Counted from the stretch's first letter, positions 26,049-34,366 are shown. The stretch is DNA of 64,000 nucleotides from Pirellulaceae bacterium (GCA_016784735.1 JADHUC010000002.1:1-64000); one strand, 5' to 3'. A program made the numbers and translations. The notes: generated from the letters alone by a model not told the origin.

Positions 26049-26284
26049 CACGGCAGGGCCTCACTGGGGGGTGTCGGGTTTCGGGTGTCAGGTGTCAGGC
26101 AGAAAAGAGCTGTAGAAGCCGAGAACTGAATCCCGTCACGACGGCAGCGATACCAGACGGCGAGCGTGAAGCAACGGCTCGCTTCTCTCGCAAGTCACGC
26201 AGGCTCGAAACGTAAGCAAAGAACGGACGGCAGTTTCCACTCGCCTGCGATTCTTCATGTTCCGCATTTCAGGGAAAGTCACGA

Positions 26285-26322
26285 GAGATCATCGCGGACT
26301 TCTGGAAGTCCGCGATGATCTC
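26285..26322. terminator. Perfect 18-bp stem-loop, possible terminator
   Basis: GAGATCATCGCGGACTTC (26285-26302) and its exact complement (26305-26322) are separated by two bases and followed by TTTCTCCC. It is the strongest hairpin downstream of the kinase gene. The near-symmetry and short T-run leave open whether it is a terminator for one or both convergent genes or a mobile palindrome. Confidence 0.5.
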
Positions 26323-26476
26323 TTTCTCCCGACGGAAGCTTAGCTGCGAATGGCGCAACACAGAAACTGGCGATTCGCGATTGTGTCAACAGAGCCGACG
26401 CATGAATCGGGCTCAGATGTACAGTGAGCAGCACATAGGTACCTCACCACAAGTTTTCGGAGATTGGACCGGTGAC

Positions 26477-26509: not shown

Positions 26510-26568
26510 ATTCCGCGCGGAAACTTCTGCGCTGGTACTTACCGACACCTGACACCCGACACCAAACC

Positions 26569-28176
26569 CTACCGCCCCAAAAACGTCCCGCCCGTAATAC
26601 GGGCTACGCTACGGAGAAAAGTCGACAACTCTTCGTCGAAGTAGTTCCCCAGTCCGATGGCGTTGACCGGGATGTTCGCGTGCCGCTGGCAGAGTGTGTA
26701 GATCTGTTTGGCGGCTTCTGCATTGAAGCGGTTTTTGTCCGCGTAGGTAGGGGCGCCGTCGGAGAACAAGATGATGGTGTCAAGGTCCTCGTACGCGTAG
26801 GCCTTTTGCATCGCGGCCAGCGTATTGGTCCAGCCCGATGGCTTGACCGAACGGAGGTGTGTCATCAGCCGGATCCGGTTCGCGTCGCGGTCGGGCCCGT
26901 TGACGCGGATCATGGAACCGTCCTCGGGAAACGCGGTCGCGTCCGACGAGAAGACGATCAACACACACTCGTCCACCTCCAAATGATCCAGCCACGTCGA
27001 GGCGATTCGCTGGACTTCTTCCCACCGCCCGCCTTGGGTCATGCTGCCGGACGAGTCGAATAGAATGGCCACGCGTCGCAAGTCACCTCGCAGGCCGACT
27101 AGCTCCCGGTTGATGCTCTTTTCTCTCGAGCGGCTTTGACTGACTTGCTGCTGGGTCTCTTTCAGATCGTCCAACGCGTTGGCCAGTTGCACCTTCAGAG
27201 CGTCGACCTGCAATTGCAGCATCTGTTTGTTCTCGTTGATTCCCTTCACGTAATCCGCGGCACGCTGCAACCGGGACAGGTAGTCTTCCGCTCGTTCCGT
27301 CGCCTCCTTGGCCTTTGCGCCGGCCTCTTGGGCTCTGGTTCTGGTGTCTTGCAGGTCGTTCGCCGAAACGGCCTGGTCCGCCTTGTGGCGTTCCAGCGCT
27401 CGGGCGAGCAGGCTCTTCAAGCTCTCCATCTCCGTCTGGCTGGACTTCTTGATCTCCTCCAGAGATTCCTCGCTGTCGCCCAGTTGTTGCTCCAAACGCA
27501 CCACACGATCGTTCAGTGCTTTGGCTTTCTCGTCCAGCAAATCGCGCTCTTTCTTCAAGTCGTCCAAATGCTGGAGCCGCTCTTTCAATTTGGCCGTCAG
27601 ATCGGCGAGGTCTTCGTCCAGCTTGGATTTCGTTTCGGTCAGTTCCTTCTTTTCTTCTGTCAGCGTGTCACGAGCGGCCAGCAGAGTACTCTTCTCCATG
27701 TTCAATGCGTCAAGCGTTTTGCTCAGTTCCTGCACCTCGCCTCGCGTTTGCTCAAGCTTCTTGTCCAGTTCCTTTCGCGTGTTCTCCAGATCATCGCGTT
27801 CCTTCTTGGTCCCGGCTAAGTCCTTCTCAGTCTTCTCGAGTTGCGCGGCGGTCTCGTTCAGCGTCTGCGTCGTATCCTCCAAGCGTTCGGTTGTATTCTC
27901 CAACTCGCGACGCTTACGCTCCAACTCCTCGTTCCTCTGGTCCAATTCGCTCTTTTCTTTCTCAAGCTCCTCTTTCGTCTCCGACAGTTGGTCGGCAAGC
28001 GTTGCTTTGTCACCCTCCAACTGAACGTTTTTCTTGGAGCCTTTGATCACGTTGGCCTGCAAAAAGACCGCGACCACGACGACCAACACGACGGTAAACA
28101 GCGTCACGTCGTTGCTGGAAATCCAACCAGCCAAGCCTGCTTCGCCGGCAGGGTTTGTTGTCTTTTCCAGTTGCAT
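26569..28176 (-). CDS. Single-TM coiled-coil von Willebrand A protein, partner of the MotA/ExbB-like channel
   Basis: 535 aa; GGGAGG precedes the ATG. One N-terminal helix (about 24-44, VTLFTVVLVVVVAVFLQANV) has Asp23 at its entrance. The phrase SNDVTLFTVVLV resembles ExbD/MotB-type helices that carry the proton-binding aspartate. Residues about 50-365 are an uninterrupted coiled coil. Residues 367-535 are a vWA domain with an intact MIDAS: DSSGS (374-378), Thr450 in SGWTNTLAA and Asp473 in LFSDGAP. The outer domain is therefore vWA instead of the peptidoglycan-binding OmpA domain of MotB/ZorB. It is 148 bases downstream of the channel gene on the same strand. Joint function as an ion-driven stator is inferred. 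Confidence 0.85.
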   Translation of the reverse strand: MQLEKTTNPAGEAGLAGWISSNDVTLFTVVLVVVVAVFLQANVIKGSKKNVQLEGDKATLADQLSETKEELEKEKSELDQRNEELERKRRELENTTERLEDTTQTLNETAAQLEKTEKDLAGTKKERDDLENTRKELDKKLEQTRGEVQELSKTLDALNMEKSTLLAARDTLTEEKKELTETKSKLDEDLADLTAKLKERLQHLDDLKKERDLLDEKAKALNDRVVRLEQQLGDSEESLEEIKKSSQTEMESLKSLLARALERHKADQAVSANDLQDTRTRAQEAGAKAKEATERAEDYLSRLQRAADYVKGINENKQMLQLQVDALKVQLANALDDLKETQQQVSQSRSREKSINRELVGLRGDLRRVAILFDSSGSMTQGGRWEEVQRIASTWLDHLEVDECVLIVFSSDATAFPEDGSMIRVNGPDRDANRIRLMTHLRSVKPSGWTNTLAAMQKAYAYEDLDTIILFSDGAPTYADKNRFNAEAAKQIYTLCQRHANIPVNAIGLGNYFDEELSTFLRSVARITGGTFLGR

Positions 28177-28207
28177 GGTTTGCCTCCCGGGAAGAAACGG
28201 GGGGTTG

Positions 28208-28311
28208 GGTGTCAGGTGTCAGGTGTCGGGCGTCGGGCGTCGGGTGTCGGGTGTCGGGTGTCGGCTTCCCCCTCTTCTTCTTGCCTGACACCTGAAACCT
28301 GACACCCGAAA
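28208..28311. repeat. Heptanucleotide tandem array with facing array
   Basis: Eight consecutive 7-base units (GGTGTCA x2, GGTGTCG, GGCGTCG x2, GGTGTCG x3) fill 28208-28263. After a 20-base pyrimidine-rich spacer come four units in the opposite sense (CCTGACA, CCTGAAA, CCTGACA, CCCGAAA) at 28284-28311. The whole occupies the gap between the channel gene and the vWA gene, so its RNA would fold into a long hairpin between the two cistrons. Confidence 0.9.
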
Positions 28312-28324
28312 CCTATCTTCCCTC

Positions 28325-30226
28325 TCATCGCCCTCGGAGCCACGTCATCATGCTGCCTTTCGAGTTTGCCAATGCCTGTTGTCGTTGCGCTTCGGCGACG
28401 CCTTCCAGGACGGTGCGAATCTGTTCGGGCAACGCAGCGATCGACTCAGCCACAGTAGCCGCCTGCGATAGCGCCTGCGACAGATGGTTGATGTCTTGTC
28501 TAACGTTGGTGAAATCCTGAATTGCCTCGACCGTTCCCGCAAGATTCGCAAAGGTCTCGTCCATCTTAGTCAGCCGCTCGGTCACGGGGTCAAGCCCTTG
28601 TTCGACGAAAGCCGCCAACCGCTGGGCCGAACCCGAGAAGGAATCGGCGGCTGCGTGCATCGAACGTTGCGACGGCGCCACCTCGCTCGCCATAGACTGA
28701 CGCAGCGACGCTCCGGTCTCGGCAAGGTGTTCGATAGCTTGCCGCAGCGACCCGCCGGTAGCCTCCAGTTCGCGGCCCAATTCAGTGTGCAGCTTCAGCA
28801 GGCCTTCGACCGCGACGCCGCCTTGGGTAAGACCATCGGCCGACACCTGCAAACCGCTGACCGATTCTGCGAGTTTGTCCGTGTTTTCACTGTGCTTGTC
28901 CGCGGCGACTGCGAACTTGTTCTGAACCACGTCTGTGAAGGCTTCGGCCGAGCCGGCGAACTTGGTAATTGCCTCGGACGCTTCGGGGGCCAACGAGGTC
29001 ATCTTTTCAATCGACGCGATCACCTCCGTGTGCAGGCTGTCCAATCGCTCGAGCAACCCTTCGGCTTGGCCGCTGAACTTCGATATGGCCGCCAGGAAGC
29101 CTTCGTGCGCGGGCAAGACCTGCTTCTGCAGCGAACGGTTCAGCGTCTTGAATGCGTTCGTGTGGGCGTTGACCGTCTCCTGGAGATCGCCACTGCTGAC
29201 CTTCAATTGCAGCGTGCTCTCGTTGATCCGGCCGACCGACTCGGCTATGCCCTCGATCGTTCCTTGGTGCGTCTTCGCCGCTTCGACAAACTGTTTCTCG
29301 ACCGCATTGCTGAATGCCGATACCGAGACGTCCATTCCCAACACGGCTCGCTCGCCCACGGGAATCAACGATCCGATCGTTTCGACCGCGGCCTTGGTCG
29401 TATCGGTTAATTCGGCCAGCGTTTTGGGCAACTCGCCAAGTTCCTGGCCAAATGCCTCGTAGGTCTGCTGGAAAGTATCAGACGATTGATAGATTTTCGA
29501 GATGCTCTTGCGAAGCGCCCGCGCGTTCTGTTCTTGCTGCTGGGCCGACTTCAACACGGCATTGCCCATGCGCTGCATGGCTGCGATCGTTTTGACGGTC
29601 GCTGCCTGGACATCGAGCCCGAGATCTCGCCAAATCGCCGCATCGAACCACGTTCGCGCGGAATCTCGTACCGCCTCCACTCGGACACCCACCAAGTGCA
29701 ACAGCCACTGGTTGATGAACGCCAACGCGGCACCAATTCCCACGCCCGCCACCAGTGGCGTGACCATGTACAGGATGTCGCCCATCCCCATTTCTTCCGA
29801 CAACCCGGCGGTTGCAGGCAACAGGAAAATGAAACCAACGACGGTAATGATCACGCCCAACAAGGGCGCCATTACGCCCGCTCTCTGCAGAAGCAGATAG
29901 TTGCCATCGGCGCCGATCTGCGTATCTAGTTCCTTCAGGACGTCGTCCCGAGTGTAGTTGGCCGGTGCGGCGGAATCGCGCGGGAAGTTCTCGTCCACCC
30001 ATTTCAGCCACGGAATATCGCCAACAAACGCTTCGATGCCCCGGCCGTCACCCTCGTTATCCATGTCGCTGATTAGCTTCGCCAAATTCCGATTGTGCCG
30101 CTTCATGCGACGCCAGACTCGTGCGCAGTTGTAGAGCTGCAGCAACAAGAAAGCCGCGCCTATGGCTGCGACAATGAACTCCGCCGGTATCCCAAGTACT
30201 GCCGGTAATTGCGCAAGAACCGTCAC
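28325..30226 (-). CDS. MotA/TolQ/ExbB-type proton-channel protein with long cytoplasmic tail (ZorA-like layout)
   Basis: The GTG at 30226 is chosen because GGAGAGG lies just upstream; an ATG at 30241 has no such site (numbering here is from that ATG, 638 aa). Three membrane segments are seen: 21-41, 122-142 (AGVMAPLLGVIITVVGFIFLLP) and 157-186 (MVTPLVAGVGIGAALAFINQ). The two long helices have the small-residue, Pro-led pattern of the MotA/TolQ/ExbB channel. The remaining 440 residues are helical and repeat-like, resembling a methyl-accepting-type or ZorA-type tail. Family channels form pentamers that use ion flow to drive a dimeric single-TM partner; the next gene encodes such a partner. ZorC and ZorD genes are absent. 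Confidence 0.83.
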   Translation of the reverse strand: MTVLAQLPAVLGIPAEFIVAAIGAAFLLLQLYNCARVWRRMKRHNRNLAKLISDMDNEGDGRGIEAFVGDIPWLKWVDENFPRDSAAPANYTRDDVLKELDTQIGADGNYLLLQRAGVMAPLLGVIITVVGFIFLLPATAGLSEEMGMGDILYMVTPLVAGVGIGAALAFINQWLLHLVGVRVEAVRDSARTWFDAAIWRDLGLDVQAATVKTIAAMQRMGNAVLKSAQQQEQNARALRKSISKIYQSSDTFQQTYEAFGQELGELPKTLAELTDTTKAAVETIGSLIPVGERAVLGMDVSVSAFSNAVEKQFVEAAKTHQGTIEGIAESVGRINESTLQLKVSSGDLQETVNAHTNAFKTLNRSLQKQVLPAHEGFLAAISKFSGQAEGLLERLDSLHTEVIASIEKMTSLAPEASEAITKFAGSAEAFTDVVQNKFAVAADKHSENTDKLAESVSGLQVSADGLTQGGVAVEGLLKLHTELGRELEATGGSLRQAIEHLAETGASLRQSMASEVAPSQRSMHAAADSFSGSAQRLAAFVEQGLDPVTERLTKMDETFANLAGTVEAIQDFTNVRQDINHLSQALSQAATVAESIAALPEQIRTVLEGVAEAQRQQALANSKGSMMTWLRGR

Positions 30227-30435
30227 TTTGTGCCTCTCCATTACGAAGCGCAGTTGTACCCAAGCGGGAAGGATGTCCCTGTCTATGAAGATCGCTCAAA
30301 GACCGCCGCGCCTGCAACCATTGTAGTAAAAGATGCGTTTCACAGAAGATTGCGCGACTGGCAAAACCTTATCGAAGGATTCGACTGACAGACGTTTCAT
30401 TTCAGAGGCAGGCTCGGCCACAAGCAACTAGCCAA

Positions 30436-30700: not shown

Positions 30701-33700
30701 CTACGTGCCCCCAATCATACGCGGCGGGTCTTTCGAACTCGAAGCGACCTCTGCCGCAGACAGGGCCCTCTGGTAGATCTTCACACCCGACACGAGGCCC
30801 TTTACCTGGTAATCTTGGGCAGCGCGCGAGTACTGGCCAACACATAACGGGCCGGTCCATGGCCCACGATTGGGTACACACGGGACATCGGCCACGAGTC
30901 GGCCGCTCTGATACAGCCGAGCGCGGCGGCCATCGAAGGTGCCCACGAGATGCATCCAGTCACCCACGACCGATTTGCCGCCGTCACAGCTCACGCCTCC
31001 GATGTGCCACCGCCAACGTCCTCCGTAATTCTGCAGGAACCAGCCGGTTCGATTGAATTCGCCGCAAGCCATCACCACAGGCATCTTCGCGGGTTCGTCG
31101 ATGCGGACCCAGCACTCGATGGTCAATGCGTGGCGGATGTCGAATTCTGGTTGATGGCCGAACGTGACGTAGCCGCCTTCGCCAAGCGTCAACACTCCCT
31201 CGGCCACTCGCGCTTTGCCCCGGAGTTGCCCTCTCACTTTCCGACCGTCGAGCAATTGGCCGGCGGCGTCTTTGGTCATTGACGCAGTGAACACCGGATC
31301 GCGAACAAGCGGCAGCGGCACGGCGGTCGCGGCTGGCGATGCATCACTGACCTGTCCGCGTCGGTCTACCGAGCGAACCGTGTACGCATATTCCTTGCCT
31401 GATTCAACCGACAGATCGAAGAAAGTCGCGCTGGCAATGGGTGCTTCAGTCAGTTGCTGGATGCCTTGATCGCCTGCCTGTCTGCGAAATACGTGATATC
31501 GTACGTTCGGATAGAGCGCGGCACTCCACGTCAATGCGACTTCACCCGGCGCCGGTTTGGCAGCAAGACCGACAGGCGTTTCGGGAGGCTGCGGCTGTGG
31601 CACATCGACCGCGACGTAGGAGGGCACGCCTTTTTGCGTGTCCTTGGTGATGACCACCGCGTAGACTTGCTTGCCTGGCGATGCCGCTGTGTCAACATAT
31701 CGTCCGGCCGTTGTCAGGCCTAGATACGTGGACCCGTCAGGCGCGAACTGAGGAGAATCGCCGCGGTGCAACTCGTACTGAAAACCGATAGTCTCGGTTG
31801 TCCGTGGCCACGACAACTGGACGGTCCCATCCGCCGCCGCTGCGGCCGAGGGCTGCGGAGAGACGAGCGGCAGGGGTGGCAGAATCTGCATCCGGCACTC
31901 GCCGCCAACGATTTCCGCTCCGGGCATGTCCACACGAGGTTGAGCCAAGACCTCGGCCCGTATCCGACGAATGATCTCAAGCATCTCGCGGTAGTGCGGA
32001 TCACCGTTCGGAAGCAAGGACACGTTTACTTCACCGCTGTCGTCCCATTCCGGTTGCCGGCTTGGAACGACCATGTCCGGCGGTTGGACACGCTGGGTCA
32101 CCAACGGATACCCGGCGCGCGCCTGTCGGTTGCGACACATGGCCAACCCCAAGCCGCCATCCGACTTGGCCATCGGAGCCCGGAGAATGCGGCTCCACTC
32201 GGGCCGTTCGAGATTCACCCAGTCGTTGCCGATGTGCCCAGACGCGTGACACCGTGTGCAGCCGGCTTGTTGCATGACTGCCGTAAGTGGTCCCGCAACA
32301 CTCAGCAGTGCATTGGCAGTCGCGTGGGGCGTGTAGTCCCAACTCCCGTAGTAGTTGCTGTTGGTATCCATCCAAGCGAGTACCAAATCGATCTCCGCGC
32401 GGCTCATTTCCTTGATCCGGCCCTCATGTCCCGCGAGCAGCAGGTCGGCCAACGGCGCGCCGCCCGAGCCGATCGACCGTGGCGGCAGCAACTCGGACGT
32501 ATGCACGCTGGAGTTGTGGCAATTCAGAAAGCCACTCAGGCAATTCTTGAGCAACGTTTCGTAGCTGATATTGAAGGCCCACGTCCAGCCGCCCGATAGA
32601 TCGATCCCCTTGGCGATATCCTGCTCGCCCCCATGACAGCCGACACAGTGACGATCAAAGATTGGCTGAACCATGGTTGCGTAGTCGACAAATCCGCTTC
32701 CCCACGATTCCGCTTCTGGCACCGCCGGCTCGGACGTCATCGCCAGCGGCAGGTCGTCGGGGCGAATCGGCGCCGAGTATTTGTGTTCGTGACAGCCGAT
32801 GCACGAACGCGTTACGCCCGGAGTGGCTTTCACGAAGGAACGCATGCGCTGGATTTCGCGATTCTGTTCGTCCAAGGCTTCGAAGTACAACGCCCGGCCT
32901 GCCGGCGCTTCGAAGTAAGCGGAACCATCGTCGTGGACCGGCACGGTGCCGAGAATGTTCTTGACCACGTACGCGCCTTGCCACGAGACGAGAAATGCCT
33001 GGTTCCACCATCGGCCGCCAGGCGGCAGGCCGCTGGTTCGAGCGGTCTCTTCGACGATGCGCAGGCGTTTGACCGTGCCGCGCTCGATGCCTGGCATTCC
33101 CCGGTAAATGTCCGTCACTAGAAACCGACCGGTCTGCTCCGGATCGCACGATGGCGGTACGACGGGCGGATTTGGCCGCGGCTTGATCAGTGTGGGCGAG
33201 TAGCACGAGAACTCGGGATCGGCGTAGACCAGGTCGCGGCGCCCGTCGCTATGGATGATCTGAATTTTTGCGCGATCCTCGGCGTTGTTGCTGATCAGCA
33301 TTACCTCTTCGGACAGAGGCCACGGATCGCATGGGCCGCGTTTTAGCCCCTGATCCATTTCGGTCGGATACTCCGGCGTGAAATTGGTGATGGCGTCCAG
33401 GTCGTTCTTGCCCTTGTGGGGATCGATCGTCACGATCGCTCCCACAGCTTGGCCGTTGTGCGGCGTCAGGCAGGCGGCGATCAGATGCGATCCGGGCACG
33501 GAGCGCGCGTCCAGTATCGCCGTCGGCTTGGCCAGATTGTTGGCGAACAGAGCTTCTTCCATACGCCCATCGGGCGCGATGGTCCAAAGACTCTGCATGT
33601 ACAGGGCCGTCTTGTCGACATACTCCCAGCGGCCAAACAAGATCCGGCCGTCGTGCAGCACAGCCGGGTCAAATTCGTTGACGTTGTTCACCGAGATGCT

Positions 33701-34366
33701 GTGGATGTTTCCGCCGTCCCCGTCCATCACGTGCAGCGTGTCGACGCCCGAGTTGAAACAAGGTACCAGTGCTCGAGGTCGCGTCGAAGTGAAGACGATC
33801 CGTCCGTCCGGCAAGTAGGCCGGCGTGATGTCGTGATGCCCTCTGCCGGTGCGGTCTTCCTGAGGCGGGCAGGCACAGTCCTCGTCGGGGTTTGTCAGTC
33901 GGCGCAGTCCTTGTCCGTCGATCCCGATTTCATAGATACAGGTGTGTCCGTCCTGAGTGCCCTTGAACGCGAACAAGACCCTCTTTGCGCCCCACGACAG
34001 CTCGGCATCACGATACACACCTTCGCCAAGCGTCTCGTTGGTCGTCGGATCGATAACGGTGCGAATCCGGTGTTTCTCCGGCGACTCCCAGGGATTCTCC
34101 AGAATGTAGATACCACCCCCGGGATGCCAAGTGATGTAGTCGTCGTAAATATGTCCGGCAAAATACGCATGCCGTTTGACAAACAGCATTGGGGCATTCA
34201 GGAGCGATTTCAGGCTATCCGGTTTGCCGGTCTCACCGGTCGCAGGAGTTGTGGCTTGGGGGGGCTCGCCGCCGAGCGTCCGTGTTGCCGACAACAGAAC
34301 GGCGATCAGAAGCATGAGGAAAAGGAAAACAGGACGACGAACGTTGAATCTGGCTTGAACAAGCAT
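30701..34366 (-). CDS. HzsA-like exported multihaem protein with propeller, FN3 and LamG-like domains
   Basis: 1221 aa; AGGAGG precedes the ATG. Signal anchor about 11-27. Residues about 60-420 resemble the beta-propeller/middle region shared with the hydrazine synthase alpha subunit family (HGGHDI-type TGRGHHDITPAYLPDGRIVFTS shortened to GRGHHDITPAYLPDGRIVF, and DPAVLHDGRILFGRWEYVD). Three CxxCH haem sites follow: CIGCH 522-526, CVGCH 574-578 and CTRCH 703-707. Two fibronectin-III-like parts lie at about 840-1040 and a concanavalin/LamG-like domain at about 1060-1210. Such relatives are widespread in planctomycetes that do not perform anammox. Hydrazine synthesis is not implied; no HzsBC genes are nearby. 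Confidence 0.82.
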   Translation of the reverse strand: MLVQARFNVRRPVFLFLMLLIAVLLSATRTLGGEPPQATTPATGETGKPDSLKSLLNAPMLFVKRHAYFAGHIYDDYITWHPGGGIYILENPWESPEKHRIRTVIDPTTNETLGEGVYRDAELSWGAKRVLFAFKGTQDGHTCIYEIGIDGQGLRRLTNPDEDCACPPQEDRTGRGHHDITPAYLPDGRIVFTSTRPRALVPCFNSGVDTLHVMDGDGGNIHSISVNNVNEFDPAVLHDGRILFGRWEYVDKTALYMQSLWTIAPDGRMEEALFANNLAKPTAILDARSVPGSHLIAACLTPHNGQAVGAIVTIDPHKGKNDLDAITNFTPEYPTEMDQGLKRGPCDPWPLSEEVMLISNNAEDRAKIQIIHSDGRRDLVYADPEFSCYSPTLIKPRPNPPVVPPSCDPEQTGRFLVTDIYRGMPGIERGTVKRLRIVEETARTSGLPPGGRWWNQAFLVSWQGAYVVKNILGTVPVHDDGSAYFEAPAGRALYFEALDEQNREIQRMRSFVKATPGVTRSCIGCHEHKYSAPIRPDDLPLAMTSEPAVPEAESWGSGFVDYATMVQPIFDRHCVGCHGGEQDIAKGIDLSGGWTWAFNISYETLLKNCLSGFLNCHNSSVHTSELLPPRSIGSGGAPLADLLLAGHEGRIKEMSRAEIDLVLAWMDTNSNYYGSWDYTPHATANALLSVAGPLTAVMQQAGCTRCHASGHIGNDWVNLERPEWSRILRAPMAKSDGGLGLAMCRNRQARAGYPLVTQRVQPPDMVVPSRQPEWDDSGEVNVSLLPNGDPHYREMLEIIRRIRAEVLAQPRVDMPGAEIVGGECRMQILPPLPLVSPQPSAAAAADGTVQLSWPRTTETIGFQYELHRGDSPQFAPDGSTYLGLTTAGRYVDTAASPGKQVYAVVITKDTQKGVPSYVAVDVPQPQPPETPVGLAAKPAPGEVALTWSAALYPNVRYHVFRRQAGDQGIQQLTEAPIASATFFDLSVESGKEYAYTVRSVDRRGQVSDASPAATAVPLPLVRDPVFTASMTKDAAGQLLDGRKVRGQLRGKARVAEGVLTLGEGGYVTFGHQPEFDIRHALTIECWVRIDEPAKMPVVMACGEFNRTGWFLQNYGGRWRWHIGGVSCDGGKSVVGDWMHLVGTFDGRRARLYQSGRLVADVPCVPNRGPWTGPLCVGQYSRAAQDYQVKGLVSGVKIYQRALSAAEVASSSKDPPRMIGGT

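Follow-up and report, generated by a model that had tools for sequence, protein, structure and literature searches.

Two neighboring genes in a Pirellulaceae genome probably encode a single ion-driven motor of the inner membrane. They lie on the minus strand of a 64,000-nucleotide stretch of DNA (GCA_016784735.1 JADHUC010000002.1:1-64000), which we refer to as a whole as the window. The first gene encodes a 638-residue channel protein (A subunit; 28325..30241) and is followed, after 148 bp, by the gene for a 535-residue partner (B subunit; 26569..28176). We favor a 5:2 motor of the MotA/TolQ/ExbB type whose dimeric arm would be tipped by von Willebrand A (vWA) domains bearing a metal-ion-dependent adhesion site (MIDAS). 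We demonstrate here the fold and domains of the two proteins, their conserved residues, and the co-occurrence and co-divergence of their genes.

Results

The channel protein has hydrophobic segments at about residues 15-33, 123-141, and 156-181. An AlphaFold2 model of residues 1-260 has helices at 20-61, 113-144, 153-204, and 210-259, and the top 46 Foldseek matches to this model in the PDB were all TolQ, ExbB, ZorA, or MotA/PomA-type stators (probability 0.82-1.00), led by the TolQ structure 9kpz (E 1.3e-3), with ZorA appearing from E 1.8e-2. On this model the MotA/TolQ/ExbB fold is established; membership of the superfamily as judged from sequence is remote. Profile-profile alignment by hhalign to the genome's own ExbB/TolQ-type proteins set MAPLLGVIITVVGF against APMLGLTGTVLGM (E 5.7e-4, probability 30%), placing Thr133 on the channel Thr of the ExbB/TolQ “GTV.” Thr133 is invariant among relatives, together with P126, P162, G166, and G170, in the stretch spanning the second and third transmembrane (TM) helices (about residues 125-180; 29702..29867). 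The segment RVWRRMKRHNR after TM1 indicates an N-out orientation, as in ExbB. The C-terminal tail (about residues 208-638, ~430 residues; 28325..29620), predicted to be cytoplasmic, is mostly amphipathic helix (period 3.56, beyond all 500 shuffles), and whole-channel length among relatives ranges from 364 to 878 residues. A PDB sequence search with the channel profile gave chance matches to poly(A)-binding protein only, and matches in Pfam, PADLOC, and NCBIfam (ATG17, EzrA, SMC, JetC, and similar) were dismissed as coiled-coil noise.

The partner protein consists, in order, of an N-terminal GWISxxD motif, one TM helix (residues 26-44), a coiled coil of ~320 residues, and a vWA domain. Motif and TM together form a transpore-type helix (residues 17-44, GWISSNDVTLF...; 28045..28128) that includes Asp23 (codon 28108-28110). 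The coiled coil (residues 47-367; 27076..28038) has a heptad period of 3.51 over residues 47-360, lies within a proline-free stretch from residue 10 to 416, and would measure ~48 nm if straight. From TM to vWA domain, the ten close-family genomes measured span 261-338 residues (a straight coil of 39-50 nm), with shorter distances in G018 and G493. The vWA domain (residues 368-535; 26572..27075) was identified by PF13519 (E 5.9e-6) and PF00092, and through Foldseek with a structural model, which matched the CLCA1 vWA domain (E 4.8e-9). Its MIDAS is intact (D374-x-S376-x-S378, T450, and D473). W18, I19, S20, D23, D374, S376, S378, and T450 are invariant in 12 partner relatives, and D473 is present in every relative whose sequence reaches it.

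These results bear out the observations, and part of the interpretation, of a preliminary description of the locus made from the window alone, which had read from it a three-TM channel of MotA/TolQ/ExbB type with a long helical tail, and a partner with Asp23 in its membrane helix, a long coiled coil, and a vWA domain with intact MIDAS: both open reading frames (ORFs) are real and conserved in relatives. The description had begun the channel gene at 30226; the gene stands, and this position is an in-frame GTG five codons inside the longest ORF, which begins with an ATG at 30241. The choice of start codon is not critical.

We searched 241 genomes of the same family for the two genes, counting strong profile matches for the channel (E < 1e-79) and full-length matches for the partner (E < 1e-100). 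The channel occurs in 13 genomes and the full-length partner in 12, from nine genera. The preliminary description had proposed co-occurrence as a check, and frequent separation of the genes as grounds for rejecting the pair; all 12 partner genomes also hold the channel, and no full-length partner was found without one. The two genes are adjacent in ten of the 12, with gaps of 1-264 bp where measured. They are unlinked in G019, where one closed contig carries them at 2.03 and 7.67 Mb, and in G431, where they lie on two contigs, both well away from the contig ends. Only G008 has a channel with no vWA partner; a nearby TM-coiled-coil protein carries the GWIS motif with Glu for Asp and a different C-terminal domain. 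In a mirror-tree comparison, channel and partner distances correlated at r 0.94 (channel-recA r 0.76, partner-recA r 0.88; partial r 0.88). This co-divergence beyond the recA control is support rather than proof, because the pairwise distances all come from one family and so depend on one another.

Beyond this family, we scanned contigs from all prokaryotes, a scan that rests on two conserved peptides; a single-sequence search gave no match, and an alignment gave nine loci. The strict family was found only in planctomycete-type metagenome-assembled genomes: Blastopirellula, Pirellulaceae, Ca. Anammoximicrobium, other Planctomycetota, and two records labeled “bacterium.” Viral contigs and plasmids yielded no relatives. 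Scanned neighbors of the strict family included argC/argJ, an aminotransferase, lpxA-type, and sucrose-phosphate enzyme genes, with neighbor order preserved within a genus, and no nuclease, helicase, or other effector was seen beside it. Because the neighbors are ordinary, their order is kept at the genus level, and the searched viral contigs and plasmids gave no relative, the distribution looks like vertical inheritance with loss rather than a defense island.

More distant relatives occur in other settings. At L029:2046-12321 a distant channel relative is accompanied by two HSP70-like genes and a TM-coiled-coil partner with another, uncharacterized C-terminal domain, and at L057:664-8937 by HSP70, an HSP70-vWA fusion, GrpE, and a similar TM-coiled-coil partner; these gene sets apparently represent an undescribed HSP70-linked motor system. 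Downstream of a channel-vWA pair at L030:709-10856 come a GTPase-like gene and three large genes with no Pfam or PADLOC match, possibly a multi-gene conflict or signaling system. Two further planctomycete loci have PF01618-positive channels of 270-272 residues: L083:7714-10416, with two tandem vWA proteins and adjoining FHA-domain genes, and L088:7158-9037, with a single vWA protein.

In the window, the channel gene is preceded, 460 bp upstream on the same strand, by a gene for a 1221-residue protein (30701-34366) that unusually combines cytochrome-type motifs with a hydrazine-synthase-alpha middle domain and, at its C terminus, a laminin-G domain. Downstream of the vWA gene lies a convergent Ser/Thr kinase gene, and between the two, a 2-bp loop separates the arms of a perfect 19-bp inverted repeat (26284-26323), possibly a bidirectional terminator. 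Arrays and inverted pairs of the heptamer GACACC(C/T) flank the vWA gene in gaps at 26068-26100, 26542-26563, and 28199-28313, the last within the 148-bp gap between channel and partner (28177..28324), and in the window the heptamer occurs only between genes. It is a genome-wide repeat, as a 13-mer from it has 458 copies in the genome against 0 for a reversed control. A PADLOC scan of ten neighbor genes found no Zorya component and gave only matches of kinase and L-PSP type; the PD-T4-6 matches of the adjacent kinase reflect generic kinase similarity. Next to the pair, the window showed no ExbD gene.

Discussion

We infer the stoichiometry, ion, topology, force, and ligand of the proposed motor. 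Five copies of the three-TM channel would form a ring in the inner membrane, through which two partner copies would thread their GWISxxD helices, with Asp23 opposite the ring of Thr133. Ion passage at Asp23 could then rotate or ratchet the ring against the shaft. The ~320-residue coiled coil, if parallel, would be a stiff shaft spanning the periplasm, and the paired vWA domains at its distal end would grip an envelope or surface ligand via the MIDAS metal, so that a metal-dependent grip, in place of TonB/TolA or the peptidoglycan anchor of MotB and ZorB, would receive the torque or pull generated by ion flow. On the cytoplasmic side, the channels' long tails would hang as in ZorA and could gate the motor or report load. 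A second polar residue has been tied to Na+ (PMC11890865). With a single polar channel position invariant here, the ion is probably H+ rather than Na+, although this choice is a guess.

Several observations count against such a motor. The models are of moderate confidence (predicted local distance difference test 75 for the channel and 71 for the partner), TM-scores to the ExbB/TolQ/ZorA/MotA-type matches are 0.25-0.51, and the hhalign support is weak. The PF01618 (MotA_ExbB) profile matches neither the window channel nor six relatives, and misses the former while recovering nine other channels in the same genome. Conservation does not extend to the second Thr/Ser ring of ExbB/MotA, a stretch with invariant Gly166. 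The tail is shrunken in the 364-residue Blastopirellula channel, so tail length is not an absolute requirement, and an arm of 48 nm exceeds the usual periplasm. Lastly, in seven of 11 members the partner TM is trailed by positive charges, which conflicts with the positive-inside rule if the protein is N-in. Since the flanks in most members carry charges that do not favor an N-in placement, topology is the least secure part of the reading. By homology, and because Asp23 would then match Thr133 in depth, the partner would nonetheless be N-in, with its coil and vWA domain directed outward.

If the partner were inverted, with its coil and vWA domain in the cytoplasm, the pair would form a membrane-tethered cytoplasmic scaffold. 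MIDAS vWA domains are common among cytoplasmic co-chaperones, and the HSP70 neighbors of distant relatives, the lysine/arginine-rich segment after the partner TM, and cysteines that number 0-3 per protein and are not consistently paired would all suit such a scaffold. Flank charge is not conserved, however, being negative on the C-terminal side in G001, G019, G429, and G430, and neither flank charges nor cysteine counts decide the topology. To our knowledge all known B subunits are N-in, and the channel is clearly N-out from the charged segment after TM1, so that Thr133 and an N-in Asp23 fall at matching depth; we consider inversion unlikely. A passive tether, in which the channel fold is a non-conducting membrane platform and the vWA arm merely adheres, could explain both the lost second polar ring and a channel signature undetectable by Pfam. 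It is quite improbable given that Asp23 and Thr133 are invariant within hydrophobic helices, and that a carboxylate, in the form of Glu, persists in the variant partner.

A Zorya-like defense sensor, in which the motor detects damage done to the envelope by phage, vWA replaces the peptidoglycan-binding domain, and the tail signals to effectors, seems to us likewise unlikely. The strict family's scanned neighbors are housekeeping genes in an order kept within the genus, with no effector seen, relatives are absent from the viral contigs and plasmids searched, and a PADLOC match to ZorA covers only the coiled coil of the tail (E 0.0085). The Asp position and long channel tail do match ZorAB, ZorA is among the Foldseek matches, and distant relatives have as neighbors HSP70/GrpE genes (L029, L057) or, at L030, a GTPase-like gene, components of types that also occur in conflict systems (PMC7159879). 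That the genes are chance neighbors with separate functions, as their unlinking in two of 12 genomes might suggest, is very improbable and largely refuted already: both of those genomes retain both genes, the full-length partner never occurs without the channel in 241 genomes, and their distances correlate closely.

The ion-driven motor therefore remains our preferred explanation. Tentatively, and with much less conviction, we suggest that it could be a lineage-specific trans-envelope drive shaft, carrying a ZorA-like tail inside and, outside, a coiled-coil arm of 40-50 nm that rotates or pulls and bears paired MIDAS grips at its tip. It would then belong to a wider modular GWISxx[D/E] platform whose motor accepts vWA domains or different heads and is coupled to HSP70/GrpE or GTPase-like modules. 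Few 5:2 ion motors have assigned jobs, and none of the vWA-headed ones do. The family offers a clean two-gene system, with a candidate carboxylate (Asp23), a candidate metal site (Asp374), and co-occurrence even when unlinked. As such channels can evade the standard Pfam profile, the number of motors of this kind may be underestimated.

Among known systems, the MotAB/PomAB stators share with the pair the predicted 5:2 principle and an Asp in the B-subunit helix; in contrast, the window channel has three TM helices rather than four, its partner lacks an OmpA domain, and flagellar genes were not seen nearby. TolQR/ExbBD provide the best structural matches, a conserved TM2 Thr, and the N-out three-TM topology, but the pair lacks the ExbD/TolR periplasmic domain and TolA/TonB, and has a far longer tail and B subunit. 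Zorya ZorAB shares the channel core fold, a partner Asp at residue 21-24 (the essential Asp of ZorB is residue 24 in type I and 21 in type II; PMC11890865), and a long helical cytoplasmic A-subunit tail. ZorB, however, has an OmpA-like peptidoglycan-binding domain where the window partner has vWA, and the ZorA cytoplasmic domain contains beta-sheet (PMC12505986), whereas the model of channel residues 1-260 has no strand. In addition, the scanned neighbors include no ZorC/D/E, a defense context is absent, and tail length is very variable. We rejected Zorya membership for want of an OmpA-like ZorB, of ZorC/D/E alongside, and of beta-sheet in the model, in agreement with the preliminary description, which had held the locus not to be a standard Zorya from the absence of ZorC and ZorD, neither of which we found in the scanned neighbors. 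This excludes Zorya as a family label, and does not extend to a Zorya- or Tol-like working mode.

The closest precedent is the TPH-vWA/TolQ family (the second vWA family in PMC12204202; June 2025, Mol Biol Evol, Fig. 4c,d), in which vWA proteins with a conserved Asp in the TM are encoded beside a TolQ-like gene in the absence of TolR/ExbD; AlphaFold3 places them in the pore, rotation in the pentamer has been proposed, and their function is unassigned. The L083 and L088 loci resemble these published motors. The idea of a vWA protein as an ExbD-like subunit is therefore already published, and because the same principle was proposed for another vWA family, the window locus is a variant of it and not a new kind. 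By their published description, the TPH-vWA/TolQ genes, which come mainly from Proteobacteria and Verrucomicrobia, predominantly, though not universally, form pairs of heterologous vWA genes. The present family carries a single vWA gene at each locus, a 39-50 nm coil, usually a long channel tail, and a PF01618-negative channel, and was found only in the window's planctomycete family. New here are the single long-armed vWA partner, the ZorA-like tail, the Pfam-invisible channel, the relatives linked to HSP70/GrpE or a GTPase, and the restriction to one family.

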